From: a virus
Reading direction: 5' to 3' (one strand)
Virus record (IMG/VR): IMGVR_UViG_3300047585_000215
Coordinates: 1 to 22,373 of that record
Length of the DNA: 22,373 nt
Part shown: positions 4,448 through 21,732 of the stretch, one piece after another
Layout: each line of letters starts with the position of its first letter
Position numbering within the stretch: the first letter of the stretch is position 1
Notes under the pieces: model-generated
Told to the model about the DNA's origin: nothing
Databases searched by the model: none
The model's input: only the letters and a program-made list of their open reading frames with translations
Translations under genes and position numbers: made by a program

Positions 4448-5692
4448 ATGGCTTACAACGAACGTTTTCACCGCGACTTGCGGAAACAGCTGGAAGACCG
4501 ACGCACCCGGGGCAAAGAGGACGACTTCTGGACCGGCCTCAAGGGGGCCATCGAGTCCAAGCAGATCTCGCCCCACGAATTCTCCATCCGCGGATTGTTC
4601 GAGAATTTCGTCGAGACGCGGGCCAACGGACAGCGCGTCGGGCCCGAGCTCGTCAACAGTTTTAACCCGTCCCGCGGCGGCGGCCGCACGCTGTTGGAAG
4701 AGGCCGGCAATGCCATCAGCACGGCCAACTTTTCCAACATCACCGGGCAGATCATGTATTCGACGCTGCTCGATCGCTACAAGGATCGCTCGTTCATCGC
4801 CGACAAGCTAATGACGACCGTTCCGACCGAGTTCAACGGCGAGAAAATCCCCGGCATAAACCGCATCGGCGACGAGGCGGAGTCGATCGGCGAAGGCAAA
4901 GCCTATCCGACCGCCTCGTTCAGCGAGTCGTGGATCCAGACGCCGCAGACGACCAAGCGCGGCATGATCGTGCAGGTCACGCTCGAAACGGTCTTCTTCG
5001 ACCGCACGGGGCTCGTGCTCGAGAACGCCGGCGAGGTCGGCTACTGGATGGGCGTCAATAAAGAGAAGCGGATTCTCGACCACATCCTGGGCGTGACGAA
5101 TTCCTACAACTTCCTGGGCACGGCCTACAACACGTATCAGTCGTCGTCGCCGTGGGTCAACGTGCAGGCGACCAACCAGCTCATCGACTTTGTGTCGATC
5201 AATTCGGCCTTGCTGCTGTTCGACAAGATGAGCGACCCGTTCACCGGCGAACCGATCGCCGTGATGGCGGACACGATGGTCGTCCCCTCGGCGTTGCATC
5301 CGACGGCGATGGCTTTGCAGCGGGCGACCGAGGTCTGGGCGGCCCCCGGCCTCACGACGGACACGCCCAGTACCGCGGGCGGCACCTGGTCCACTCATGC
5401 CCCGAATCCGGCCGGCTATCCCTCGGCCTTCGGCGGCAAGGTCCCCGTGAGCCAGTTCGAAGTGCTCTCGAGCCCTCTTGTTTATGCGCGCGACTCGAGC
5501 GCCACGAGCTGGTTCATCGGGGATTTCAAACGGGCCTTCATGTACATGGAGAACTGGCCGATTCAGGTCATCCAAGCCCCGCCGGGCAACGAAGCCGAAT
5601 TCACCGAAGACGTTGTCGCTCGCTTCAAAGTCACCGAACGCGGCACCATCGCCGTCCGCGACCCGCGGTACGTGGCGAAATGCACCGCCTAA
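4448..5692 (+). CDS. Major capsid protein (probable HK97 fold)
   Basis: 414 aa, the shell-forming subunit. A charged helical N-terminal arm (residues about 5-35, and a further segment to about 80 ending GGGRTLLEEAGN) is the part that a prohead protease would remove. The core begins NITGQIMYSTLLDRY (97-111) and continues with FIADKLMTTVPTEFNGEKIPG, IGEGKAYPTASF and TKRGMIVQVTLETVFFDRTG, a pattern of Mu/HK97-like capsid proteins: an E-loop-like stretch, then a long spine helix with VNKEKRILDHILG. The end FTEDVVARFKVTERGTIAVRDPRYV resembles the P-domain end of such proteins. A strong RBS and position after the protease agree. Assigned by pattern and synteny, without a search. Confidence 0.82.
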   Translation: MAYNERFHRDLRKQLEDRRTRGKEDDFWTGLKGAIESKQISPHEFSIRGLFENFVETRANGQRVGPELVNSFNPSRGGGRTLLEEAGNAISTANFSNITGQIMYSTLLDRYKDRSFIADKLMTTVPTEFNGEKIPGINRIGDEAESIGEGKAYPTASFSESWIQTPQTTKRGMIVQVTLETVFFDRTGLVLENAGEVGYWMGVNKEKRILDHILGVTNSYNFLGTAYNTYQSSSPWVNVQATNQLIDFVSINSALLLFDKMSDPFTGEPIAVMADTMVVPSALHPTAMALQRATEVWAAPGLTTDTPSTAGGTWSTHAPNPAGYPSAFGGKVPVSQFEVLSSPLVYARDSSATSWFIGDFKRAFMYMENWPIQVIQAPPGNEAEFTEDVVARFKVTERGTIAVRDPRYVAKCTA

Positions 5693-6846: not shown

Positions 6847-7206
6847 GTGAGCACGATCAAATCGATCTTGGAAGCCGAATACGTCTCGTGGGTCGATACC
6901 CAGGCCGTGACCTGCACGCTCTTCGCGGCTTCCGGAGGCGGCGGCAACGGAACGACGGTCAGCATTTCTGCCGTGTCGCAGCTCAAAGAAGCGGAAGCCC
7001 AGCGAGTGTTCGGCGAGTTTCGCCACGACAGCAGCACAAAGGTCTGGACCGTGCCTGATGCTCTGCTCAATCCGTCCGCCAACGGCAACGTGCTCAACAA
7101 CGGTGACATCATCCAAGATGCGAGTGGAGCGAACTGGCGAATCGAGCATGTCGCTTTGGTCCGGATGGACACCCAATGGGTCTGCCTGACCGTGAAACAA
7201 CTCTAG
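6847..7206 (+). CDS. Putative head-tail adaptor/closure protein, 119 aa
   Basis: GTG start at 6847, 3 nt after the previous stop. The N-terminal part is helical (MSTIKSILEAEYVSWV) and the rest looks like a small beta barrel. It closes with NNGDIIQDASGANWRIEHVALVRMDTQWVCLTVKQL, a pattern like the strands of head-closure and stopper proteins (a GD-I-x-D-x-x-G-x-x-W run followed by alternating strands). Size and position between capsid and tail genes fit. Note that the expected next genes (tail terminator and tube) are about 9 kb away. Family assignment is inference. Confidence 0.55.
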   Translation: MSTIKSILEAEYVSWVDTQAVTCTLFAASGGGGNGTTVSISAVSQLKEAEAQRVFGEFRHDSSTKVWTVPDALLNPSANGNVLNNGDIIQDASGANWRIEHVALVRMDTQWVCLTVKQL

Positions 7207-7306: not shown

Positions 7307-8863
7307 ATGGGCACGCCCTCCCCTCCCACAATCTGGTTTGGCCCGCCGACGGCACCGCCGATCAGCGCCGGAACGGTGACGGTTCAGAACGGCCACCTTG
7401 CCGTCGGGCAGCAGCGTGCCACGTTCTTCGGCGTCAACGTCGATAACTGGGCGATCCTCGGGATGGTCACGATGCAGAACGGCCATCCCGCGCTCAATAC
7501 GAACTCGACCGAGCTGGTGGCCGCCCAGCTCGATAACCTGGTCAACGCCGGCGTGCGAGCAGTCCGCGTTCACGGACTCGACTGCTTCACCGGCTGCAAT
7601 CTGTTCTGCTGCGGCAACGGACCGCAGACCGGATCGCGGCAACTCGACCCGATCAGCCTGCAGGCTCTCGGCTGGTTCTTTAATGCGTGCGGCCAGCGCA
7701 ACCTGCGGATCGTCCTCACCCTGCACTACCAGCGCGTGCTCGGGCCGTCCGACGTCCCCTCCTGGGCCTGCCCGACGTTCGCCGAGTGCACTTCGCAAAG
7801 CTATCTCGGCAACCCCGTCGGCTGCATGCATCCTTGGATGTGGTTCGACGCCGGCTTGATGCAACTGCAGGCCGAGTTCAACCAGCAGCTGTTGCGCTGG
7901 GTGAATCCCTATACGAATCTGGCGCTGGGTGACGACCCCACCTTGATGGCCGTCATCTTGCAGAACGAACATTCGCTCGCCAAAGACAATCCGTGGTCCT
8001 ACACCGCGCATCCCGTGCTGAACGGGATCTTCAATGCGGCCACCGCTGCGTGGTGCCAGGCCAACGGCGTCGTGGCGAACAAATTCGGGAATGCCCAGCA
8101 CCAAGAGTTCTGCGTCGCCACCGAGACGGCCGTGCTGACCGCTCAGGCCGCGAACGTCCGCAGCCTGACGCATGCGCTCGTGGTGGCCGGCACTTATTAC
8201 GGTGACGCTCCTTACGCGAGTCTGGCGGCACCCGCAGCCGTCGGCGATGCGATCGATTTTCACTTCTACAGCCGCTACTCCCCGACTGACACAAACGGAT
8301 TCCTCAACGGTCAAACCGCGTCATCCGCAACCGCGGCGAGCGACCGCACGCGATTCGCCGCCGTGGCCGCCGGCTGCGGATGGGGCGGCAAGCCGCAGTT
8401 CTGCACCGAGTGGGGTCCCGTCGGCCAGTACTCCGGCAATCCGGTCGATCCGGCGGCCGAGCGCTCGCAGGTGACCGCGGCCCTCGTCAAAGCGGCGATC
8501 GCACAAGACCTCGACGCTGTCTTTTTGTACTCGTGGCTGCACTCGCAGGTCCAAGGGGAGGGTTCGCCCTACTGGACGCCAACCGTTTACGACTTCCGCG
8601 TCGATCCCGTGATGGCGAGCGGATTGCCGTCGCACGCGGCCTGGTTCCACGACCTGTCGCTGCGTCCGTCCGCGACGATCACGCCGAGCGTGACCAGCGT
8701 CTCCGGCGCTCCGGCCACCGTCACCTTCACGCCGACCGCGGGCGTCTACGGGGCCACGGTCACGAACGCGGCCGGGCAGTCGGCTTACGAACAGTACGGC
8801 CCGTATACCGATCCAGCGCTTTATAGCGTCCCCGCCGGCACGAAAGTGCAGGTGGCCGCATGA
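7307..8863 (+). CDS. Glycoside hydrolase, clan GH-A type, in virion gene cluster
   Basis: 518 aa. It hydrolyses or binds polysaccharide with a (beta/alpha)8 barrel. Clan GH-A hallmarks are visible in order: a start strand ATFFGVNVDNW (38-48), AGVRAVRVHGLD (81-92), NLRIVLTLHYQ (132-142), the acid/base motif MAVILQNEHS with N220-E221, DFHFYS with H319 and Y321, and the nucleophile strand PQFCTEWGPVG with E368. A small beta domain (about 455-518) follows the barrel. There is no signal peptide or membrane helix, so the product is not exported by Sec; together with its place in the structural operon this suggests a virion component such as a tail or capsid depolymerase. Substrate cannot be told. 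Many cysteines (such as C93, C97, C101, C102) are unusual for a cytosolic enzyme. Confidence 0.75.
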   Translation: MGTPSPPTIWFGPPTAPPISAGTVTVQNGHLAVGQQRATFFGVNVDNWAILGMVTMQNGHPALNTNSTELVAAQLDNLVNAGVRAVRVHGLDCFTGCNLFCCGNGPQTGSRQLDPISLQALGWFFNACGQRNLRIVLTLHYQRVLGPSDVPSWACPTFAECTSQSYLGNPVGCMHPWMWFDAGLMQLQAEFNQQLLRWVNPYTNLALGDDPTLMAVILQNEHSLAKDNPWSYTAHPVLNGIFNAATAAWCQANGVVANKFGNAQHQEFCVATETAVLTAQAANVRSLTHALVVAGTYYGDAPYASLAAPAAVGDAIDFHFYSRYSPTDTNGFLNGQTASSATAASDRTRFAAVAAGCGWGGKPQFCTEWGPVGQYSGNPVDPAAERSQVTAALVKAAIAQDLDAVFLYSWLHSQVQGEGSPYWTPTVYDFRVDPVMASGLPSHAAWFHDLSLRPSATITPSVTSVSGAPATVTFTPTAGVYGATVTNAAGQSAYEQYGPYTDPALYSVPAGTKVQVAA

Positions 8864-8877
8864 CGCAGCACACTTGC

Positions 8878-9933
8878 TCAACGCTTCAGCGCGATCTGCA
8901 CGTCCTTGGCGATGCTCGCCTGGAACTTTTCGACGCCGGCGGAATTGAGATGCAGCCCGTCCCACATCAGGGGAGCATCGTAGGTTCGCACGATCGGCCG
9001 CACGACCGTCGTGTGCGGGTAAGTCGATTCGAGCTCGCCGGCCAAAGTCTCCAGCGGCCCGAAGTTCCGGGCGCGAGCCACGTCGGCGGAGACCGGAGCG
9101 AATTCGACGACAAGCGTGATGCCCGCCTCCTCACAGATTTGCGCGATGCGCTCCACGCCCCCTCGCCACTCCTCGCGAATGACGACGTCGCCTCCGCCCC
9201 CCAATCCCTTGGGCGGCCCGTGGCTGCCGGGCAAGCCGAAGAATCCCCGGCCGTCGAGCGTTTTGCGCTGCAGCGTGTGGTACGTCTCCTCCTCCTTGAT
9301 CCCCTTGAGCGGAACGTCTCGCACGTCCCGGCCGTGCAAGCGATCGACGAAGGCCGGCTGCCAGACGGACCACATGCCTCGCTTGCAGAAGTACGAAATC
9401 CGCTCGAGCGGCGGCACGACCTCGGCCACTTCGGGCCCGTAGTTCGCGGCAAACGTCTTCGGGAGCGGACCGCCAATCCGGGCAGCCTCATCCTCAAAGC
9501 AGGTCGGCGAAACGCAGAGCACGACGGCCCGCAGCGTCGCATGATGCAACAGGTACGCCTTGAGCGTGATGACGAACCCCGACGCCCCCACTCCGCGAAG
9601 GCTGCCCAGGTTGTATGCGACCAGGCCGGTCATGCGCTCGAAGACGCGGGGATCAGCCCCGGTGTGACACGTGCTGTCGCCCAGAAAGATCACGTCATTC
9701 TGATCGGTCGTCCGCAGCGCGTACTCGACGGGACAAACCGCAATGGCTTCATCAGCAGTCGGCCGTTCCCCCCGTTGAAAGAATCGCAATTCGCGGTCGA
9801 CCCCCGCACCCACGCGATAGGCAACCGCCCCCAGAGCGACAATCGAGAGCGCCGTCACCGCCAAGACCAAACCAGCCAGCCAAATCCGGTAGAAAGTGCC
9901 TCTCGAGTTGGTTGCCTGGGTCGCCATGACCAT
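8878..9933 (-). CDS. Membrane-anchored SGNH/GDSL hydrolase-like protein A
   Basis: 351 aa on the strand opposite to the phage operon. Residues 14-42 form one hydrophobic segment (RIWLAGLVLAVTALSIVALG) with a charged N-terminus, so a type II anchor with the domain outside the cytoplasm is likely. The SGNH motifs are present: NDVIFLGDSTCH with S87, VAYNLGSLRGVG (block II-like), and WDGLHLNSAGVEKF with D325 and H328. Members of this superfamily remove or transfer acyl groups, including O-acetyl on cell-wall and exopolysaccharides (AlgX/DltD-like); no MBOAT partner is visible here. An ATG at 9927 is an alternative start. Its stop lies 14 nt from that of the hydrolase gene, convergent. It is a paralogue of the next gene and a probable moron. 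Confidence 0.75.
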   Translation of the reverse strand: MVMATQATNSRGTFYRIWLAGLVLAVTALSIVALGAVAYRVGAGVDRELRFFQRGERPTADEAIAVCPVEYALRTTDQNDVIFLGDSTCHTGADPRVFERMTGLVAYNLGSLRGVGASGFVITLKAYLLHHATLRAVVLCVSPTCFEDEAARIGGPLPKTFAANYGPEVAEVVPPLERISYFCKRGMWSVWQPAFVDRLHGRDVRDVPLKGIKEEETYHTLQRKTLDGRGFFGLPGSHGPPKGLGGGGDVVIREEWRGGVERIAQICEEAGITLVVEFAPVSADVARARNFGPLETLAGELESTYPHTTVVRPIVRTYDAPLMWDGLHLNSAGVEKFQASIAKDVQIALKR

Positions 9934-9997
9934 TCATTTTATTCGCCGACCCAGTCCTGCGCCATCGGCTACCGGCTAGATCCGTCTTTACGCATCA

Positions 9998-10044
9998 ATG
10001 ACCGGAGGTCATCCTCGCCGCGGAAAGCCCCCTCCCGTCCGCGG
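9998..10044. other. Two small inverted repeats between the SGNH genes
   Basis: atgacc-gga-ggtcat (9998-10012) is a perfect 6-bp stem, and ccgcgga (10,018-10,024) pairs with tccgcgg (10,038-10,044). They follow the stop of the upstream minus-strand gene (10,054) and could attenuate or bind a protein, but neither is followed by a T-run on the minus strand. Confidence 0.3.
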
Positions 10045-10053
10045 ACTGCCGCA

Positions 10054-11064
10054 TCAGCGATGGATGGCCGATTCATTCCCCAGAACCGCACGCACCTCGT
10101 TCCCGACGGTTGGCATGAAGCGATCGACACCAGCGGAATTCAAGTGCATCGAATCCCACTTGAGGGACCGATCCCAGGCAACGATCGTGGGGCGTGCTAC
10201 GCATGCGCTCGGGCAGGACGACTCGAAGTCGTCAGCCCAAGCGTCGAGCTTGGAGAAGTCCCGCAAGTGGCGGACTCCATCCCAGATCGGGCCGAATCGC
10301 ACGAGCAACTTGGCACCGCTTTTGTGGCACACCGCGGCGAGTCGCTTCAGGCCGTCTTTCCATTCGTCGAGAATGAACGTCCGAGGCGCAGGCATCTCGA
10401 CAGCCCATCGCCCACCATGCTCGCCGGGCAGCGCAAAAAATCCACGCGACGCATGCATTCGGCGTTCGAGGGTATGGAAGATTTCTTTCTCCATCCCGCG
10501 AAGGGGCTTATCGAAAAACGGGATGCCTTCCCGGCGCCCGCTCAATTCGAGTGACCCGCGACGAACAAAGTAGGGAACAGACTCGCTCAGCGGAACCACG
10601 TCCGCCACCTCAACCCCATAGTTCGCCACCAACCGACGCACCACATGTCCGCCCGCCGATCCAGAATTGACTTCGAACCTCAGTGGCGAGACCACCAGCA
10701 CGACCAGCCTCGGTGCCGGGTGGCGATCAACGTAGGCTTCTGCCGTCAGCAGAATTCCGAGCGGGCCGATACTCCCGAGGCTTCCGCAGTTGTAAGCCTT
10801 CACTCCAGACATCCGCGCGGGGTCGACCTCATCGTGGCAGGTCGAGTCACCCAGAAAGACCACATCGTTCGCCTCGTCGGAGCGCAGCGCATATTCGACT
10901 GGAAGACTGACGAACGCCTCATCGATTGTCGGCGCAAGACGCGGATCGAGAAATCGCATCAGCGGCTCGGCGAGCTGACCGACACGGTATACCGTGACGC
11001 CGGCAACAGCGACGACAGTGCCCGCGACTACGACCACGAAGAAAGTCGATCTGACGCGCCCCAT
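10054..11064 (-). CDS. Membrane-anchored SGNH/GDSL hydrolase-like protein B
   Basis: 336 aa from the ATG at 11,064; a TTG at 11,100 would add 12 residues but is a weaker start. It has a hydrophobic N-terminal segment (residues about 8-27 of this form, FFVVVVAGTVVAVAGVTVYR) and the same plan as its neighbour: DVVFLGDSTCHDE (S74), VKAYNCGSLGSIG, VANYGVEVADVVPLSE, GFFALPGEHGG, and a closing WDSMHLNSAGVDRF with D304 and H307. The shared blocks ANYGxEVAxVVP, FFxLPGxHG and HLNSAGVxxF show that the two arose by duplication and then diverged strongly. Likely role is acyl removal or transfer on an envelope polymer; substrate unknown. It reads away from the 115-aa gene, leaving about 98 nt for divergent control. 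Confidence 0.75.
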   Translation of the reverse strand: MGRVRSTFFVVVVAGTVVAVAGVTVYRVGQLAEPLMRFLDPRLAPTIDEAFVSLPVEYALRSDEANDVVFLGDSTCHDEVDPARMSGVKAYNCGSLGSIGPLGILLTAEAYVDRHPAPRLVVLVVSPLRFEVNSGSAGGHVVRRLVANYGVEVADVVPLSESVPYFVRRGSLELSGRREGIPFFDKPLRGMEKEIFHTLERRMHASRGFFALPGEHGGRWAVEMPAPRTFILDEWKDGLKRLAAVCHKSGAKLLVRFGPIWDGVRHLRDFSKLDAWADDFESSCPSACVARPTIVAWDRSLKWDSMHLNSAGVDRFMPTVGNEVRAVLGNESAIHR

Positions 11065-11162
11065 GCTCGCGATTTTCGCGCACCACTCGGCCGAACGCAA
11101 ATTTTTCCGGGGGGCAGCGTGACTACCTATCCCCGCGACGTCGGCTCCCAGACGGAAATTAT

Positions 11163-11510
11163 ATGCCTAAGGAACTATTTACCTTCTGTATCCTCGCGAC
11201 GGTTGATGATCTCGAGCGTGCTCGACCGCTCTGCCTCGAATGGATTAAACGCTGGCAGCCGCAAACGGCTCAAATTGCGGCTGAAATGCTGCCCACTCCG
11301 CTGAGCCCAACGGGAAAAGCCCCAGCAACGCATCAACTGTGTGCCATGTGTGGCACGCGCGCGGAATTCGACGACATGCAAACGTTCATTGCCACGCACG
11401 GAGTTCCGGTCGACGCCACGCTAGTCGGCCGCCAGGAAGATAAAAGCCTCTTCACGATCGAGACCCGCGACAAATGGCTGCCGACACGTGGCCTGAAGGT
11501 AATCGGCTAA
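11163..11510 (+). CDS. Unrecognised 115-aa protein with a CxxC motif
   Basis: No family recognised. The sequence begins MPKELFTFCILATVDDLERARPL, giving one strand and one helix, and a HQLCAMCGTR motif (C60, C63) sits before a helix FDDMQTFIATHGV. The end, FTIETRDKWLPTRGLKVIG, forms two likely strands. A single CxxC could be part of a zinc site shared between subunits or a redox pair. It is followed immediately (TAA then ATG) by the 486-aa gene, so the two are probably co-translated; it could be a chaperone or partner for it. Confidence 0.6.
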   Translation: MPKELFTFCILATVDDLERARPLCLEWIKRWQPQTAQIAAEMLPTPLSPTGKAPATHQLCAMCGTRAEFDDMQTFIATHGVPVDATLVGRQEDKSLFTIETRDKWLPTRGLKVIG

Positions 11511-12971
11511 ATGGCCGTTCAGATCCAACGCTGGACACAGCTCACGCCTACGTCGAATCAGACAGTGAGCTTCACAACGAGCTTCACGCCGTCGTGTGTG
11601 ATCCTACGCGCGAGTATCAACACGTCTGCGGGGCTCGCAGCGGGCATGTCTATATGCTTCGGAATGGCGGCAGGAAGCAATCAGGTCGCCTTTTCGACGC
11701 GGGCGACGGATAACAGCACGTCGCCCAGCGTCGCGAACTCTCAGAATGTAGGCGACCTGCTCATACTATACGATCCGAGCGCGACCGGCACGGTGCTGGC
11801 GGCGGCTGCCATCAACGGCGGTTTGACGTCGACCGGCTTCGGTCTTCAGTTCACTACCACATCGGCGACACAATACGAGTACACAGTCTACGCGATTGGT
11901 GGAGATGTATCATCCGCGGAGATGATTGCCCTTTCCTCGCCAGGGAGCACCGGAAACCATGCCTACAGCACGACGCTAGGCACGCCGACCGCCGCACTAT
12001 TCGCATCTGCGAACGCGACTACGAGTGGTACGGGTGGCAACGCCTCTGTGAACGGAATGATGCTCGGTTGGGCTGCGTCGAGTTCGTCGCAAGGCGTCTC
12101 GATGACCGAAGGCACCACTTCCGCGAAAAATGGCGAGCAGCTTACCAATGCGTGCATTTGCACTGGCGCCGGCCTAGTCGTCGGCGCGCTGTCATCGTTC
12201 GGCAGCAATAGCTGCACGATCAACTTCTCGTCGACCGGTAGCGGCGTATACACGTGGGGCCTGTTCCTCTACGGATCGTTCAACGTCGTCGCATTCTCGA
12301 ATAATTCTCCCACGAGCAACGGTAACCAGTCGAACTCGCTCTCTTTCTCGCCAATGTTCGCTCTCGTGCAGACGCTCGGGGCGGTGGTTAGCGGCTCCTC
12401 GCAAGCCGTCACCTGTCAGTCGATCGGAACCTGTGACAGCAACGGCAACGCTGACACATACGTCGGAGTTTGGGTCAATCCGCCCAAGTCCGGGGACAGC
12501 GTGGCGAAAAGCTGGTATTCGGCCGGCGTCCTGCTGAACGGTTTCAATTCGTCGGCAACGAGCATCGTCGAAGCATCCGTCGCAAACCTGACGAACGGAG
12601 TGACGGCTGACTTCACGACAACGCAATCGGGCACGCAGTATCAGTACATCGGGTTTGCGATCGGAAGCCTCGCGGTTACTGATACGGGTGAGTTCAGCGA
12701 CGACTGCTCGTCAATGTGGGGCACGAGCCTGCACCGCACCATGATGGTTCTCAGCCGGGTGAAATCTGCGCTGGACGCGCGCAATTGGTGGCCAGCGCGT
12801 CCGGCGATCTCCTTCGCCCAGGGAATCTTGCGCCGAATCATCCTCGCGATGCAGACGATCAGTTCGCAAATGACGGACGCGATCAGTAATGGCAACTTCG
12901 CGTTGCTTCTAACGAGGCCACTCCGACAGCGCCCCACCGGGCGCAACGCAACAAGCTCTTACCGCAATTAA
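11511..12971 (+). CDS. 486-aa beta-rich protein with internal repeats
   Basis: Ser/Thr/Gly/Asn rich, of the type seen in tail fibres, decoration or host-binding proteins. Two units resemble each other: residues about 16-131, with SFTPSCVILRAS and closing TTTSATQYEYTVYAIGG, and about 266-387, with SFSPMFALVQTLG and closing TTTQSGTQYQYIGFAIGS. The middle (132-265) may be a third, degenerate unit closing FSSTGSGVYTWGLFLYGS. The last 100 residues (388-486) are different: basic and helical, with SRVKSALDARNWWPARPAIS and RRIILAMQTISSQMTDAI, perhaps an attachment domain or a frameshifted end. No enzyme motif, signal peptide or collagen-like repeat. Role in the virion is inferred. Confidence 0.65.
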   Translation: MAVQIQRWTQLTPTSNQTVSFTTSFTPSCVILRASINTSAGLAAGMSICFGMAAGSNQVAFSTRATDNSTSPSVANSQNVGDLLILYDPSATGTVLAAAAINGGLTSTGFGLQFTTTSATQYEYTVYAIGGDVSSAEMIALSSPGSTGNHAYSTTLGTPTAALFASANATTSGTGGNASVNGMMLGWAASSSSQGVSMTEGTTSAKNGEQLTNACICTGAGLVVGALSSFGSNSCTINFSSTGSGVYTWGLFLYGSFNVVAFSNNSPTSNGNQSNSLSFSPMFALVQTLGAVVSGSSQAVTCQSIGTCDSNGNADTYVGVWVNPPKSGDSVAKSWYSAGVLLNGFNSSATSIVEASVANLTNGVTADFTTTQSGTQYQYIGFAIGSLAVTDTGEFSDDCSSMWGTSLHRTMMVLSRVKSALDARNWWPARPAISFAQGILRRIILAMQTISSQMTDAISNGNFALLLTRPLRQRPTGRNATSSYRN

Positions 12972-12997
12972 CACCTCTTTCCTGAAAAGGATGTACC

Positions 12998-13465
12998 ATG
13001 CCCGAGCCCTATGATTCGACAGCGTCTGTCACCGTCGGGACGAACCTGACGATGCAGAACCTGTACCAGACCCTCTCCACTCCCACCACGCGGGGGAAGG
13101 TCGGCGAAGTTGACATTTCGTGTCCGGCCACGCCGGCCGACCAGATCGCCGAGTTCTTCTTCAACCGCACCACCACCGCCGGCTCCGGAGGCACCGCCAT
13201 CACGCCCGCTCAGGACGATCCGGGCGGACCGGCGGGGCAGTTCGGCGCGAATGCCGGCAGCTTCAGCACCGAGCCCACCTACACCTCGGGCAAGACGCTC
13301 TGGCGGCTTAACTGCCACCAGCGCAACACCGTCCGCTGGATCCCGCGCGACGGCAAGGAAGCCATGCTCATCGCCACGCAAAACAATGGCCTGGGCCTGC
13401 GTTCGCTGTCGTTCTCGTCGGGCACGGGCGTGGCCTACGACTCGACGATTTCCTGGATCGAATAG
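12998..13465 (+). CDS. Unrecognised 155-aa putative virion protein
   Basis: A clear RBS (AAGGA at 12,987-12,991, 6 nt before the ATG) fixes the start. The sequence is small-residue rich, with a likely beta core: ASVTVGTNLTMQNLYQTL, LWRLNCHQRNTVRWIP, KEAMLIATQNNGLGLRS and a last strand VAYDSTISWIE. The terminal W-I-E strand recalls the VEWAEVK end of the 204-aa protein at 1357, but the likeness is too short to claim homology. No known family recognised. Context suggests a minor structural protein. Confidence 0.6.
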   Translation: MPEPYDSTASVTVGTNLTMQNLYQTLSTPTTRGKVGEVDISCPATPADQIAEFFFNRTTTAGSGGTAITPAQDDPGGPAGQFGANAGSFSTEPTYTSGKTLWRLNCHQRNTVRWIPRDGKEAMLIATQNNGLGLRSLSFSSGTGVAYDSTISWIE

Positions 13466-13483
13466 CGCCGTGTCGACCGTGCG

Positions 13484-13603
13484 GATTTCCGAATGACGAA
13501 GGAAACGACCGAATGACCTAAGTACGCACAAGACCCATCGCCGCGCGAGCCCGTTCGGGCGGCGAGCTGCTTGCGTCATTCGTGCTTCGTCATTCGGAAA
13601 TTC
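13484..13603. repeat. Inverted pair of gaatgacgaa-type repeats around a hairpin
   Basis: The left part (13,484-13,517) reads gatttccgaatgacgaagg, then aaacgaccgaatgac. The right part (13,575-13,603) reads in reverse complement as gaatttccgaatgacgaag, then cacgaatgac. Both therefore carry two gaatgac units in opposite orientation. Between them, gcccgttcgggc (13,549-13,560) is a tight hairpin. The element fills the 166-bp gap between the 155-aa and 81-aa genes, which holds no reading frame of note. It may form a long cruciform or hairpin. Confidence 0.65.
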
Positions 13604-13631
13604 CAGGCCACAGTTCTCAAGGACAACCCCG

Positions 13632-13877
13632 ATGCCAGAAACAACCGCCCCTCTGGGCTACGAGTTCATTTGTGTGGCGATCGACCCGGAAGAAATCCAC
13701 CAGGGTCACGAGTTGATCGCCGAATGGCGGACTGTGACGTTGATGGCCAAGAACGTCGGCGGCAACGGCAAAGGGGGCGCCGTCGGCGGGTTTCAACTCC
13801 CGCTGATGGAAGTCGCCGACTCCCAGGCCTTCGAGGTCGGCAAGTCGTACCTGCTCAGCATCGCCCCCAAGACATAA
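13632..13877 (+). CDS. Unrecognised 81-aa protein
   Basis: The product starts MPETTAPLGYEFICVAIDPEE and ends FEVGKSYLLSIAPKT; an Asn/Gly/Lys loop (KNVGGNGKGGAVGG) splits it. Alternating hydrophobic residues suggest a small beta fold. No cysteine pair, helix of note or known motif. It lies between two inverted-repeat elements, so it may be transcribed with its neighbours but is physically isolated. Evidence for coding is an intact frame, no better alternative on either strand and good spacing; expression and role are unknown. Confidence 0.5.
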   Translation: MPETTAPLGYEFICVAIDPEEIHQGHELIAEWRTVTLMAKNVGGNGKGGAVGGFQLPLMEVADSQAFEVGKSYLLSIAPKT

Positions 13878-13884
13878 GCAGGCC

Positions 13885-13991
13885 AAAGAGCCGCGCACAA
13901 AGGAAGCGGTCACTTCGCGCGATCGCACCTGTGTTGCGACGTTCGCCGTTCCCATCGCGCGAAGAACCGCTGACTGCGTGCGCGGCTCCTT
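13885..13991. repeat. 107-bp imperfect palindrome related to the 3263 element
   Basis: aaagagccgcgcac (13,885-13,898) pairs with gtgcgcggctcctt (13,978-13,991), 13 of 14. Further in, gcggtcacttcgcgcgat (13,906-13,923) pairs with atcgcgcgaagaaccgc (13,954-13,970) with one gap and one mismatch. The right 28 nt match 3385-3412 with one difference. It fills the gap before the gene at 14,006 and has no reading frame. Confidence 0.75.
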
Positions 13992-14005
13992 AAAGGCATC
14001 GTCCA

Positions 14006-14293
14006 ATGTCCACCCAGATTTACGAATCGGCCGTTGTCGAAACCCAGGAGTTCGGCAGCGACAAGATCACGCGGCAGAAGATGGTGATGTGCATCCACTG
14101 CGGAATGCACTTTCTGGAGCCGCGGGACGGCTTCTTCTTTTGCGACAGCTGCGTGGGGCCGGTCTGCGGCTCGAAGAACTGCCGCGAAAAATGCGTGCAT
14201 CTGGAACAGTGGATGGAGAACGTCGAAGCGGGTCGGCCGGAAAACTACAAGCCGTCCCGCATCTTCGTCCCCTTTAATTACGGAATTCGCTGA
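14006..14293 (+). CDS. Small seven-cysteine putative zinc-binding protein
   Basis: 95 aa. Cysteines at 29, 32, 46, 49, 54, 59 and 63 give CIHCG, FCDSC, VCGSKNC and REKC, with H31 and H65 near by, enough ligands for one or two zinc ions (ribbon, treble-clef or RING-like). The N-terminal 25 residues and the C-terminal NYKPSRIFVPFNYGIR tail look unstructured. No exact family recognised. Zinc proteins occur in phages as transcription or packaging helpers and as small structural clamps; here the genes on both sides are structural-type, so a virion or assembly role is possible. Function unknown. Confidence 0.65.
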   Translation: MSTQIYESAVVETQEFGSDKITRQKMVMCIHCGMHFLEPRDGFFFCDSCVGPVCGSKNCREKCVHLEQWMENVEAGRPENYKPSRIFVPFNYGIR

Positions 14294-14382
14294 GCCCGTA
14301 ACTCCGACGCGAGTGGGTTTCGGGATCGACTGGTTGCAGAAACGCTGACTCGCGAACGCGCGCCTAGTCTGCAAGAGATCAA

Positions 14383-15645
14383 ATGCGACGCAAGATCTAC
14401 TATCCGGCAGCGGCAGTCGAGCAAGGACTGCTGCAAATCAATCCGGGCGACGTCTTCTCCGAAACAGAGGAGAATCCGACGCTCCGCCGGGTGCGGCATC
14501 GCCGTTCGTATCCGGAGTCGATCGAGGCCGAGCAAGGACTGCTGCAGAACGTACCCGGCGACGTGTTCAGCGAAACCGACAGCCGGATGATGCCCCGGCG
14601 ATATCGCCATCGGCTGACCCATCCGGCCCCCGTCGAGTGCGAGCTGGGGCTGCCGGTTCCGACCGACGTTTTCTCCGAAACGCAGGAGAATCCGCGGTTG
14701 CGACGAACCTCGCACCGTCGGACGTACCCTGCTCCGGTGGACTGCGAGCTCGGCTTGCAGCTGCTCGGCGACGTGTTCAGCGAAACCGACGCGCTGCCGC
14801 GACACGTGCGAGCGCGGCACCATCGCAGCTATCCCGCGCCGGTGGAATGCGAGCTGGGCCTCCCCCTGCCCGGCGACGTGTTCAGCGAGACCGACGCGCG
14901 GATGATTCCCAAGCGGTCCCGCAATCGTCACATCTATCCGGAGCCGATCGAAACCGAAAAGAGGCTGCTACAGAACTGGCCGGGCGACGTGTTTTCGGAT
15001 CCGGTGCCGTACGCGATCTTGAAGCGGATTCGCCGCCGGCGCAGCTTCCCCGACCCGGTCGACTGCGAACACTGGCACGAGATCTATCCGGGCGACACCT
15101 TCACCGAAACGCAGGATCGCCCGGTCGCGATGCGGCTGCGGCACAAGAACATCTATCCCGAGCCGGTCGAGAACGAGCTAGGTCAACTGCAATGCTGGCC
15201 GGGCGATGTCTTTACCGAAACTGACCTGCGGATGATCCCGCGGGCCAAGCGGGTCTACCCCGAGCCCGTCGAGCAAGAACAAGGACTGCTGCCCGACTTC
15301 CCGGGTGACGTCTTCGCGGAGACCGACTGCCGGATGATTCCCCGCTGCAAGCGCAGCTGGGACGACCTGGCGATGCCGGACGCGTTCGCCCCCTACACGG
15401 GCCAACCGCCGATCGACGACGGACCGTTCTCCGACTGCGACCCGTGGCACGCCCGCCACAACGCCAACCGGATTCGCCCTTGGCTCCAGCCGGGGCTCGA
15501 AGCACACGAGATGACAGTGACGGTCCAGCGGCACCTGGGCGCGTTCTCCGGTGCGAAGGGCGGCTACTTGACCGTCCAGGCGACGCGGAGTGCCCGCCAC
15601 TTCACCGCCGTTCCCACTCGACAAGGCAACCTAACGGTCGACTGA
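14383..15645 (+). CDS. 420-aa protein of nine charged 34-37-residue repeats
   Basis: Unlike any family I recognise. Residues 6-325 are nine tandem units of 34-37 aa, starting at 6, 42, 79, 114, 149, 184, 221, 257 and 291. The consensus is YPxPVExELGLL, then three variable residues, PGDVFSETD, then xRMxPRRxRHRR. Each unit thus has a Pro-rich acidic front, an invariant-like GDVFxET core and a strongly basic end. Units 3-5 carry a cysteine (PVECELG, PVDCELG), as do some later ones. The tail (326-420) is Pro/Trp rich (NRIRPWLQPG), then beta-like (GAKGGYLTVQATRSARHFTAV). No signal peptide or membrane segment. It sits among small virion-type genes, so a fibre, spacer or nucleic-acid or polysaccharide-binding rod is possible; function unknown. 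Confidence 0.7.
   Translation: MRRKIYYPAAAVEQGLLQINPGDVFSETEENPTLRRVRHRRSYPESIEAEQGLLQNVPGDVFSETDSRMMPRRYRHRLTHPAPVECELGLPVPTDVFSETQENPRLRRTSHRRTYPAPVDCELGLQLLGDVFSETDALPRHVRARHHRSYPAPVECELGLPLPGDVFSETDARMIPKRSRNRHIYPEPIETEKRLLQNWPGDVFSDPVPYAILKRIRRRRSFPDPVDCEHWHEIYPGDTFTETQDRPVAMRLRHKNIYPEPVENELGQLQCWPGDVFTETDLRMIPRAKRVYPEPVEQEQGLLPDFPGDVFAETDCRMIPRCKRSWDDLAMPDAFAPYTGQPPIDDGPFSDCDPWHARHNANRIRPWLQPGLEAHEMTVTVQRHLGAFSGAKGGYLTVQATRSARHFTAVPTRQGNLTVD
14398..15357 (+). repeat. Nine tandem in-frame coding repeats of 102-111 bp
   Basis: The DNA encodes the nine protein units and still shows nucleotide similarity: the 20-mer acgtgttcagcgaaaccgac occurs at 14,561-14,580 and 14,771-14,790, and with one mismatch at 14,876-14,895. 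Unit lengths (34-37 codons) change only by whole codons, so the array is selected as protein. Partial DNA identity suggests expansion by recombination. Confidence 0.85.
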
Positions 15646-15646
15646 C

Positions 15647-15988
15647 ATGGCGTCCGCACAACTTTTCGTCGGCAACGACAACGATGTCTACCTGCAAGGT
15701 TACTTGCTCGCGGCAACCGGGGCGCCAGTAACCGACGCGCTGCCCGCCTTCACCGTCCACCTGTTGGGAGGCTTCGACGAAGACGGCAACCCGATTCCGG
15801 GCGAACCGATCCCCGGCCTGACGAATGTCTCCATGCCGGCCGTCAACGCGGTTCCGGGAGACTATCGCGGACTCTTGTCGGGAACCGAGGGGCTCACCGA
15901 GGGGAGCCAGTACTACATCACCGTCACTTTCACCAACTACAACGATTTCTTCGAGGGCTGGTTCACAGCCGCCACGCGTACGACTTAG
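15647..15988 (+). CDS. Unrecognised 113-aa beta-rich protein
   Basis: Begins one base after the stop of the repeat-protein gene. The sequence looks like a single immunoglobulin-like or carbohydrate-binding beta sandwich: AQLFVGNDNDVYLQGYLLAATG, FTVHLLGGFDEDGNPIPG, and SQYYITVTFTNYNDFFEGWFTA, with an acidic Asp/Asn-rich turn (DEDGNP) that could bind calcium. No family could be named. Tight spacing to the repeat protein suggests that the two act together, for example as a rod and its cap or receptor-binding tip. Confidence 0.6.
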   Translation: MASAQLFVGNDNDVYLQGYLLAATGAPVTDALPAFTVHLLGGFDEDGNPIPGEPIPGLTNVSMPAVNAVPGDYRGLLSGTEGLTEGSQYYITVTFTNYNDFFEGWFTAATRTT

Positions 15989-17306: not shown

Positions 17307-18224
17307 ATGACCGCTTCCATCGGCTATGCCTCACAGATGGCGCTTTCCGCGACGTCGTCGTTTTCCAGTTCGTCGCTGTGGCTGGAATTCGTCAGCGAAT
17401 CGATCACCGCGCAGCGCACCTTCAGCGACAGCCCGGGCATTCGCGGCACCCGTTCGTACTCGCAGGAACGCGTGCGGACGATGCCGTACAAAGTCAGCGG
17501 CACAGTCAACCTGCTGTGCGACATTCACAGCATGGACACGCTCTTGGGATACATCCTGGGCACGGGGCCGACGTCTTCGGTCTACTCCCTCACCGACACG
17601 CTGCCGTCCTTCTATTTGATGATCGATCGCGTGGCCCAGGTCTTCACGTACGGCCCCTGCTACGTGGGCAAGGCGACGTTCAGCGCCTCGCCGCAAGACG
17701 CGCAGCTCAAGTGTGCCCTCGAGGTCGAAGCCGAAACCGAATCGGTGGGCTCGGCCGGCTCGTTCCCCAGCGGCATGACGGTCGACACCAACCGCCCGTT
17801 CATCTACTCCGATGCGGCCTTCAACGTTCTGGGAAGCACGAGCGTCTCGGGATTCAGCTGGGAGCTGACGATCGACAACAACCTGCTTGCCGACCGGTTC
17901 GTCAACGAACTCACACGCTCGCAGATTCCGACCACGGATCGGCACGTGACGGTGAAGATGAGCACGCCGTGGACGAGCGCACAAACCTCGCTCTACAACA
18001 TCGCGGCCGCCTCGTTCGGCGCGGCGACGGCCGTCTTCTCGAATGCCGAGGAAACGATCAGCTCGACCCAGTCGGTGCTGACGTTTTCGACTCCGTACCT
18101 GATGTGGCCGGGCAAGTCCCCCGTCGTCAGCAAAAAGGGGGACGAAATCAAGCTCGAGATCGACGCCAAAGCCGCGAAGACCGGATCGTCCCTCGAACTC
18201 AGCGTCACCAACGCCCACGGGTAG
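17307..18224 (+). CDS. Major tail tube protein
   Basis: 305 aa, with an AAGGA-type RBS (17,291-17,295) about 11 nt upstream. Stacked hexameric rings of this protein form the tail tube through which DNA passes. The sequence is beta-rich, with LWLEFVSESITAQRTF, SYSQERVRTMPYKVSGTVNLL, GYILGTGP, ALEVEAETESVG, SGFSWELTIDNNLLA and RHVTVKMSTP, a two-sheet barrel with long loops. The place directly before the frameshifted chaperone and tape measure is the usual one for tubes. A final beta-strand region (residues 262-301) could be an extra surface domain. Assigned mainly by synteny. Confidence 0.7.
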   Translation: MTASIGYASQMALSATSSFSSSSLWLEFVSESITAQRTFSDSPGIRGTRSYSQERVRTMPYKVSGTVNLLCDIHSMDTLLGYILGTGPTSSVYSLTDTLPSFYLMIDRVAQVFTYGPCYVGKATFSASPQDAQLKCALEVEAETESVGSAGSFPSGMTVDTNRPFIYSDAAFNVLGSTSVSGFSWELTIDNNLLADRFVNELTRSQIPTTDRHVTVKMSTPWTSAQTSLYNIAAASFGAATAVFSNAEETISSTQSVLTFSTPYLMWPGKSPVVSKKGDEIKLEIDAKAAKTGSSLELSVTNAHG

Positions 18225-21426: not shown

Positions 21427-21732
21427 TCATTTGCTCCCTTTGTTAGCCTTTTGGGCATCGCTCAACTGTTTCAAATAGGCTTCCTGATGCTCGTGCGACA
21501 TGCGATCCATCATTTCTGCGTCGGGATTCTTCGGCGTGGGCAGTACGTAGTCCCTGACGACCGTCCAGAGAATTGGCACAAGAATGACGGCTGCGACAGC
21601 GCCAATAACAAACTTCGCGATCAGATTTATGGGAGTGCTGCGGATCTTCCGACCGCATTGAGGGCACGTGTACGCGTTGCGACTGACGTTCGCGCCGCAA
21701 TCGGGACATGGCATCAGGTTCGAGCTGTTCAT
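21427..21732 (-). CDS. Zinc-ribbon, single-pass membrane protein (antisense moron)
   Basis: 101 aa. An RBS-like AAAGGG lies 7 nt upstream. Residues 9-26 form a short zinc ribbon, CPDCGANVSRNAYTCPQC (C9, C12, C23, C26), followed by a basic stretch (RKIRSTP) and one hydrophobic helix (about 35-62, INLIAKFVIGAVAAVILVPILW). The C-terminal tail is charged and helical (DAEMMDRMSHEHQEAYLKQL). The inside-positive rule suggests that the ribbon faces the cytoplasm. Small zinc-ribbon/TM proteins of this type are common in host genomes with mostly unknown roles. Alone on the minus strand in the tail operon it is probably a moron expressed in lysogeny; an envelope or superinfection function is a guess. 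Confidence 0.75.
   Translation of the reverse strand: MNSSNLMPCPDCGANVSRNAYTCPQCGRKIRSTPINLIAKFVIGAVAAVILVPILWTVVRDYVLPTPKNPDAEMMDRMSHEHQEAYLKQLSDAQKANKGSK

Follow-up and report, generated by a model that had tools for sequence, protein, structure and literature searches.

The repeat gene P0001 of an uncultured siphophage-like virus encodes nine tandem, charge-alternating units followed by a C-terminal region that is shared with two related phages, in which the same C-terminus is joined to unrelated N-terminal sequence. We tentatively favor the reading that P0001 belongs to the virion as an accessory protein at the neck, with the repeats serving as an exchangeable arm for weak surface contact; on sequence comparison this seems the most plausible role, although the case for it is well short of firm. 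The repeat is an orphan within a familiar architecture, and the exchange of modules on a common C-terminus was absent from the original prediction; both make the gene worth following. The DNA analyzed, referred to as the window, was the 22,373-nt virus record IMGVR_UViG_3300047585_000215, positions 1 to 22,373. It was compared to two related contigs, IMGVR_UViG_3300037846_000332 (loci L002 and L006), the capsid protein of which is 96% identical to that of the window, and IMGVR_UViG_3300037366_000146 (locus L005).

Structure and selection of the repeat array

P0001 and its parts are as follows.

14383..15645, plus strand: repeat gene P0001, open frame of 420 amino acids (aa)
14398..15357, plus strand: array of nine units in tandem, 34-37 residues long (aa 6-325), each with an acidic YPxPVExE...PGDVFxET front and core and an Arg/His-rich end
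15358..15492, plus strand: Pro-rich linker (aa 326-370), 18% Pro, on the disordered side of charge-hydropathy
15493..15645, plus strand: conserved C-terminal region (aa 371-420 and stop), LGxFxGAKxGxLTVxxTRxxxxFTVxPTRQxNLTV

The frame has an ATG start and a TGA stop, and it was judged to be correct because its GC content by codon position (0.69/0.47/0.80) resembles that of the neighboring genes. The repeats are confined to residues 6-325, with residues 326-420 being non-repeat, and the unit borders lie at residues 6-42, 43-79, 80-114, 115-149, 150-184, 185-221, 222-257, 258-291, and 292-325 (lengths of 37, 37, 35, 35, 35, 37, 36, 34, and 34). The original prediction of nine units of 34 to 37 residues was borne out both by a unit profile, which recovered 9 domains at 52.8-75.3 bits each but was built from the same units and matches them by construction, and by self-comparison of the protein, for which the top ungapped score was 293 at a period of 35, compared to 45 or less in 30 shuffles (z = 57). 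Degeneration was seen in units 1 and 6 (AAAV in place of PVE; SDPVP in place of SETD). At the DNA level, Tandem Repeats Finder detected only two 105-bp copies, at 74%. The strict alternation of acidic and basic blocks that had also been described was found throughout, with 9/9 fronts carrying a net charge of -3 to -6 and 9/9 ends a net charge of +3 to +6. Charge segregation was above that of 1000/1000 shuffles, and charge autocorrelation at 30-40 residues was above that of 2000/2000 shuffles.

We then compared the units to each other at synonymous and nonsynonymous sites. Between units, pS was about 0.60 and pN/pS was 0.58 overall. By part, pN/pS was 0.26 in the GDVFSET core, 0.36 in the front, and 0.97 in the Arg/His-rich end, the last value being limited by the unit alignment, which is least certain in that end. 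The core and front are therefore constrained as protein by purifying selection, whereas the basic end seems to be kept mainly as a charge pattern or composition and less as a sequence. Thus, the earlier claim that the periodicity is under protein-level selection holds for the core and front and not for the whole unit. The array is old, as judged by the strong divergence at its synonymous sites and by the lack of any recently duplicated pair of units; recent expansion of the array is ruled out by the pS of ~0.6 between units, the best pair of which shares 71% of residues.

The charge pattern bears on the possibility that the Arg/His-rich ends bind a polyanion, either packaged DNA or an anionic host polysaccharide. 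There are nine regularly spaced basic clusters, each with a net charge of +3 to +6, the array of L005 is different but likewise Arg-rich, and putative polysaccharide binding would fit the neighboring genes. However, the acidic front balances each cluster, the repeats have a pI of 5.93 and a near-zero net charge, and conservation within the unit is lowest in the basic end. From the sequence, polyanion binding therefore appears improbable, and DNA binding, one of the roles first suggested, is not favored.

Structure prediction with AlphaFold2 gave a mean pLDDT of 34 for the full-length protein and 54 for three units, values that are confounded by the three-row alignments used (with the two locus-mates and with the other two triples, respectively) and are no proof of disorder. 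The models contained no strands and only one three-residue helical stretch. The composition of the repeats falls on the disordered side of the charge-hydropathy line, and the TOP-IDP score of the array was 0.172, compared to 0.05-0.08 for the capsid, stopper, terminator, and tube proteins. On these predictions, the array looks extended and mostly non-globular. A self-assembling rod or fiber, as had been proposed, would require the acidic fronts to stack electrostatically on the basic ends of neighboring units or chains. The strict alternation and near-constant unit length are consistent with this, but AlphaFold2 provided no confident secondary structure at an alignment depth of three rows, the Pro content of the array is high (11.6%), no solved structure matched by sequence, and the composition is on the disordered side. 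The rod is left unsupported by these results, and we consider it quite improbable.

As anticipated, the unit matched no known family in Pfam, PHROGs, NCBIfam, the PDB, or phage records. The best matches of P0001 were below threshold in Pfam (DUF4037, 19 bits versus a cut-off of 22.1) and in NCBIfam (TyeA, 14.2 versus 25.9), the best in PHROGs had an E value of 0.012, and no stretch passed by itself in any of the three. The PDB yielded 0 matches at E values up to 1 with either P0001 or the unit profile, tblastn of P0001 against 50,697 phage records yielded no relative, and a direct search of IMG/VR with P0001 yielded no confirmed relative. When IMG/VR DNA was searched by pattern, PGDVF[ST]ET gave two chance matches without repeats and the core-plus-front pattern gave none; as a control, each pattern matches the window four times. 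The unit profile, searched against 397 genomes from a single planctomycete order, gave six single weak matches (E values of 0.0007-0.009), without tandem copies, which is about the number expected by chance. A profile of the beta-sandwich protein encoded next to P0001 gave none in the same order, and P0001 gave none at an E value of 1e-4 in 392 genomes of the phylum. A weak match of P0001 in genome G018 (L036, E value of 9.4e-4) was rejected, as it contains no units. By these searches the repeat unit is an orphan, that is, unique within what was searched, since some collections may omit records very near the window. Orphan repeat proteins are common in uncultured phages.

The C-terminal region and its partners in related phages

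Although the original prediction described the repeats correctly, it overlooked residues 326-420, with the conserved C-terminus, which proved to be the most informative part of the protein. The last ~45 residues of P0001 are homologous to the ends of the proteins encoded at L006 8787-9890 (E value of 4.9e-8) and L005 9192-9872 (E value of 4.7e-6), with 38-48% identity over 50 aa among the three. Both of these proteins share with P0001 their position, the C-terminal region, and the downstream beta-sandwich gene, but the remainder of each differs: that of L006 consists of an FN3 domain (Pfam E value of 4.2e-10) and a Pro-rich region, and that of L005 contains its own Arg-rich repeat array with a period of 42 (~42 residues; z of 6.9). 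Because only the C-terminus is shared, these two locus-mates were missed by the direct search and were revealed by synteny only. When unit profiles of the three proteins were compared, the cross-scores were below zero and were equalled by 17-115 of 250 shuffles. We had considered that the L005 and L002 arrays might be diverged copies of the window unit (aromatic-x-Gly ... Arg-rich ... Pro), and this was not supported by the profile comparison. A 12.5-bit unit match in the window C-terminal region was spurious and arose from the overlap of the last unit with it. The occurrence of the same C-terminus with an unrelated remainder at one locus shows that the N-terminal modules are exchangeable, and the conserved C-terminal piece thus carries swappable modules, the repeat array being one of several alternatives.

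Downstream of this site, gene order is constant, with the following genes in sequence in the window, L005, and L006.

15647..15988, plus strand: partner gene of 113 aa for a probable beta-sandwich protein, with 60-64% identity to its counterparts in L005 and L006
16121..16585, plus strand: presumed tail terminator gene of 154 aa, with 73-81% identity to its counterparts in L005 and L006

The partner gene begins at the next ATG, one base past the P0001 stop, in agreement with the earlier description of a beta-sandwich gene at that distance; its product had a weak PDB match to carboxypeptidase D (E value of 0.024). At the nucleotide level, L002/L006 aligned with the window over the capsid, stopper, and glycosidase-like genes and then from the beta-sandwich gene onward, with a gap at 8971-15660. 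The pN/pS values were 0.61-0.82 for the conserved C-terminus, 0.38-0.53 for the beta-sandwich gene, and 0.20-0.34 for the terminator.

We suggest that the ~45 conserved residues at the C-terminus attach P0001 to the particle, perhaps together with the downstream beta-sandwich protein, and that the nine charge-alternating repeats would then form an extended, mostly non-globular, multivalent arm. Since the same C-terminus is accompanied by FN3 or another Arg-rich array in the relatives, this arm would be an exchangeable module, and it would most likely serve for weak multivalent contacts with the surface of the host or with its glycans. The exchange of modules on the common C-terminus, the constant downstream genes, the glycan-linked neighbors described below, and the extended-looking array all count for such a neck appendage. 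Conversely, the conserved C-terminus evolves faster than the genes for the beta-sandwich protein and the terminator and is thus less constrained than a piece used for attachment would be expected to be, the family searches found no known sugar-binding domain in P0001, and two minus-strand genes lie in the same stretch of the genome.

Gene neighborhood and host

The remaining genes to which P0001 was related by position are as follows.

4448..5692, plus strand: major capsid protein (MCP), Pfam Phage_capsid_4, E value of 1.2e-12
6847..7206, plus strand: presumed head-tail stopper, 119 aa, with an ortholog in L002
7307..8863, plus strand: glycosidase-like protein, 518 aa, weak Pfam Cellulase (GH5) match, E value of 0.0012, below the cut-off
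14006..14293, plus strand: Cys-rich protein, 95 aa (CIHCGMHF...FFCDSCVGPVCGSKNCREKC), immediately preceding the repeat gene
17307..18224, plus strand: tail tube protein, Pfam Phage_tube_2, E value of 2.2e-12

The profile matches of the capsid protein upstream and the tail tube protein downstream confirm that P0001 is located between head and tail genes. The stopper and terminator roles were presumed from gene order and size, without profile matches; weaker matches of the stopper are located after the MCP in planctomycete prophages. The Cys-rich protein had no relative among the loci compared. A small zinc-ribbon protein with a hydrophobic segment (21427-21732, minus strand; Zn_Ribbon_1 E value of 1.8e-5, just under the cut-off) is encoded amid the tail genes.

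The capsid protein recovered 21 loci in species-representative genomes, all of which are planctomycete by title and many of which are Pirellulales, the cultured Botrimarina hoheduenensis and Lacipirellula limnantheis among them. P0001 itself gave no match in the genomes of the cultured strains L. limnantheis I41 (L033) and B. hoheduenensis Pla111 (L031). Resting on these MCP relatives, Planctomycetota is therefore well supported as the host phylum. In tblastn searches against the 50,697 phage records, no relative was found for the portal, capsid, tail tube, or glycosidase-like protein, and the adhesion machinery of this phage is therefore unexplored.

The presumed stopper and terminator are separated by a variable accessory stretch of ~9 kb (7.2-16.1 kb); in the more distant contig L010, a stopper-sized gene directly adjoins the terminator. 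The stretch contains the two minus-strand genes (8878-11100) and so is not a purely structural operon. These genes, at 8878-9933 and 10054-11100, are adjacent paralogs inside the plus-strand structural operon. They share 42% identity over 312 aa as well as the conserved motifs FLGDSTCH and WDxxHLNSAGV, and neither has a match in Pfam; we take the motifs to suggest an SGNH-hydrolase-like or acyl-modification role. The accessory stretch of L002 includes a possible recombination endonuclease VII/HNH-type gene (13033-13686, plus strand; weak Pfam E value of 0.031), close to the module-exchange gene. The variability of the stretch and its minus-strand genes would be expected if P0001 were a non-virion accessory (moron) gene that is active in the infected cell and is located in the structural operon by chance. 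We find this very doubtful, as the same C-terminus and partner gene occur at the same place in three phages, in the company of FN3, CBM96, and glycosidase-like proteins.

That company was observed at several loci. A separate FN3 protein is encoded in the L005 accessory stretch, and in two planctomycete prophages (L015 12265-13587 and L030 12373-13728), the terminator homolog is fused to a large N-terminal extension, which in L015 holds a CBM96 domain (Pfam E value of 5.5e-9); L030 has the same fused layout. The FN3 and CBM96 domains occur at this position in relatives only. The glycosidase-like protein is present in all three related contigs, where the weakly GH5-cellulase-like gene follows the presumed stopper (window 7307-8863, L002 7759-9435, and L005 2704-4671), and its product is a candidate virion-borne glycosidase. 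The presence of FN3, CBM96, and GH5-like genes argues that this gene position repeatedly gathers glycan-related or Ig-like modules. In two Thermoguttaceae loci (L029 11181-12257 and L028 11137-12078, both plus strand), the capsid gene is followed by a gene for a short-repeat protein (periods of 21 and 26 residues), the start of which is Ig-like in look.

Known systems and implications

In architecture, the nearest precedent is the lactococcal neck passage structures (NPS), which are formed by accessory proteins of the neck in which one end is conserved and the carbohydrate-binding parts vary (PMC6669499). P0001 would resemble them in being accessory, in its association with the head-tail joint, and in combining one conserved end with exchangeable parts. 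In NPS proteins, the conserved end is a BppU-like N-terminus, accompanied by coiled-coil trimers and carbohydrate-binding modules (CBMs), whereas P0001 has a conserved C-terminus and a charge-alternating array, and no sequence relation was found between them. The BppU-like N-terminal domain is absent from P0001 (the repeats begin at residue 6, with no family match), and the beta-sandwich neighbor had no BppU match in Pfam or the PDB. We therefore did not assign P0001 to the NPS proteins, because a BppU-like N-terminus and a CBM were sought and not found.

A second likeness, also in architecture only, is to CsoS2 of alpha-carboxysomes, a disordered, highly repetitive protein that is essential for assembly (PMC11365436). 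Both would be disordered, repetitive, and multivalent, with conserved motifs; CsoS2 differs in function and context, and it had no sequence match to P0001 in Pfam or the PDB. By analogy, P0001 might be a disordered assembly scaffold in which the repeated PGDVFxET serves as a binding site for part of the virion (a capsid, connector, or tail protein) in head-tail joining. This is the main rival to a neck appendage, and it is suggested by the location of the gene between head and tail genes and by the presence of one short conserved motif per unit in an array that otherwise drifts, is charged and rich in Pro, and has no predicted fold. However, head-tail proteins are well conserved across these phages and the array is not shared at all, and a general assembly factor should retain its binding motif in a phage with a capsid protein that is 96% identical. 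We therefore regard the scaffold as rather unlikely.

Within the favored reading of P0001 as a neck appendage, a bolder and distinctly unlikely version is that it represents a new class with a fixed C-terminus and interchangeable arms, one of which is a disordered, charge-alternating polymer that acts as a reversible electrostatic glue to the planctomycete surface and not as a folded adhesin. If the favored reading is right, a single gene position in these phages would be a module-exchange site at which folded adhesins and disordered charged repeats take each other's place on the same C-terminal piece, and the use by a phage of a disordered polyampholyte for host contact would become directly testable.
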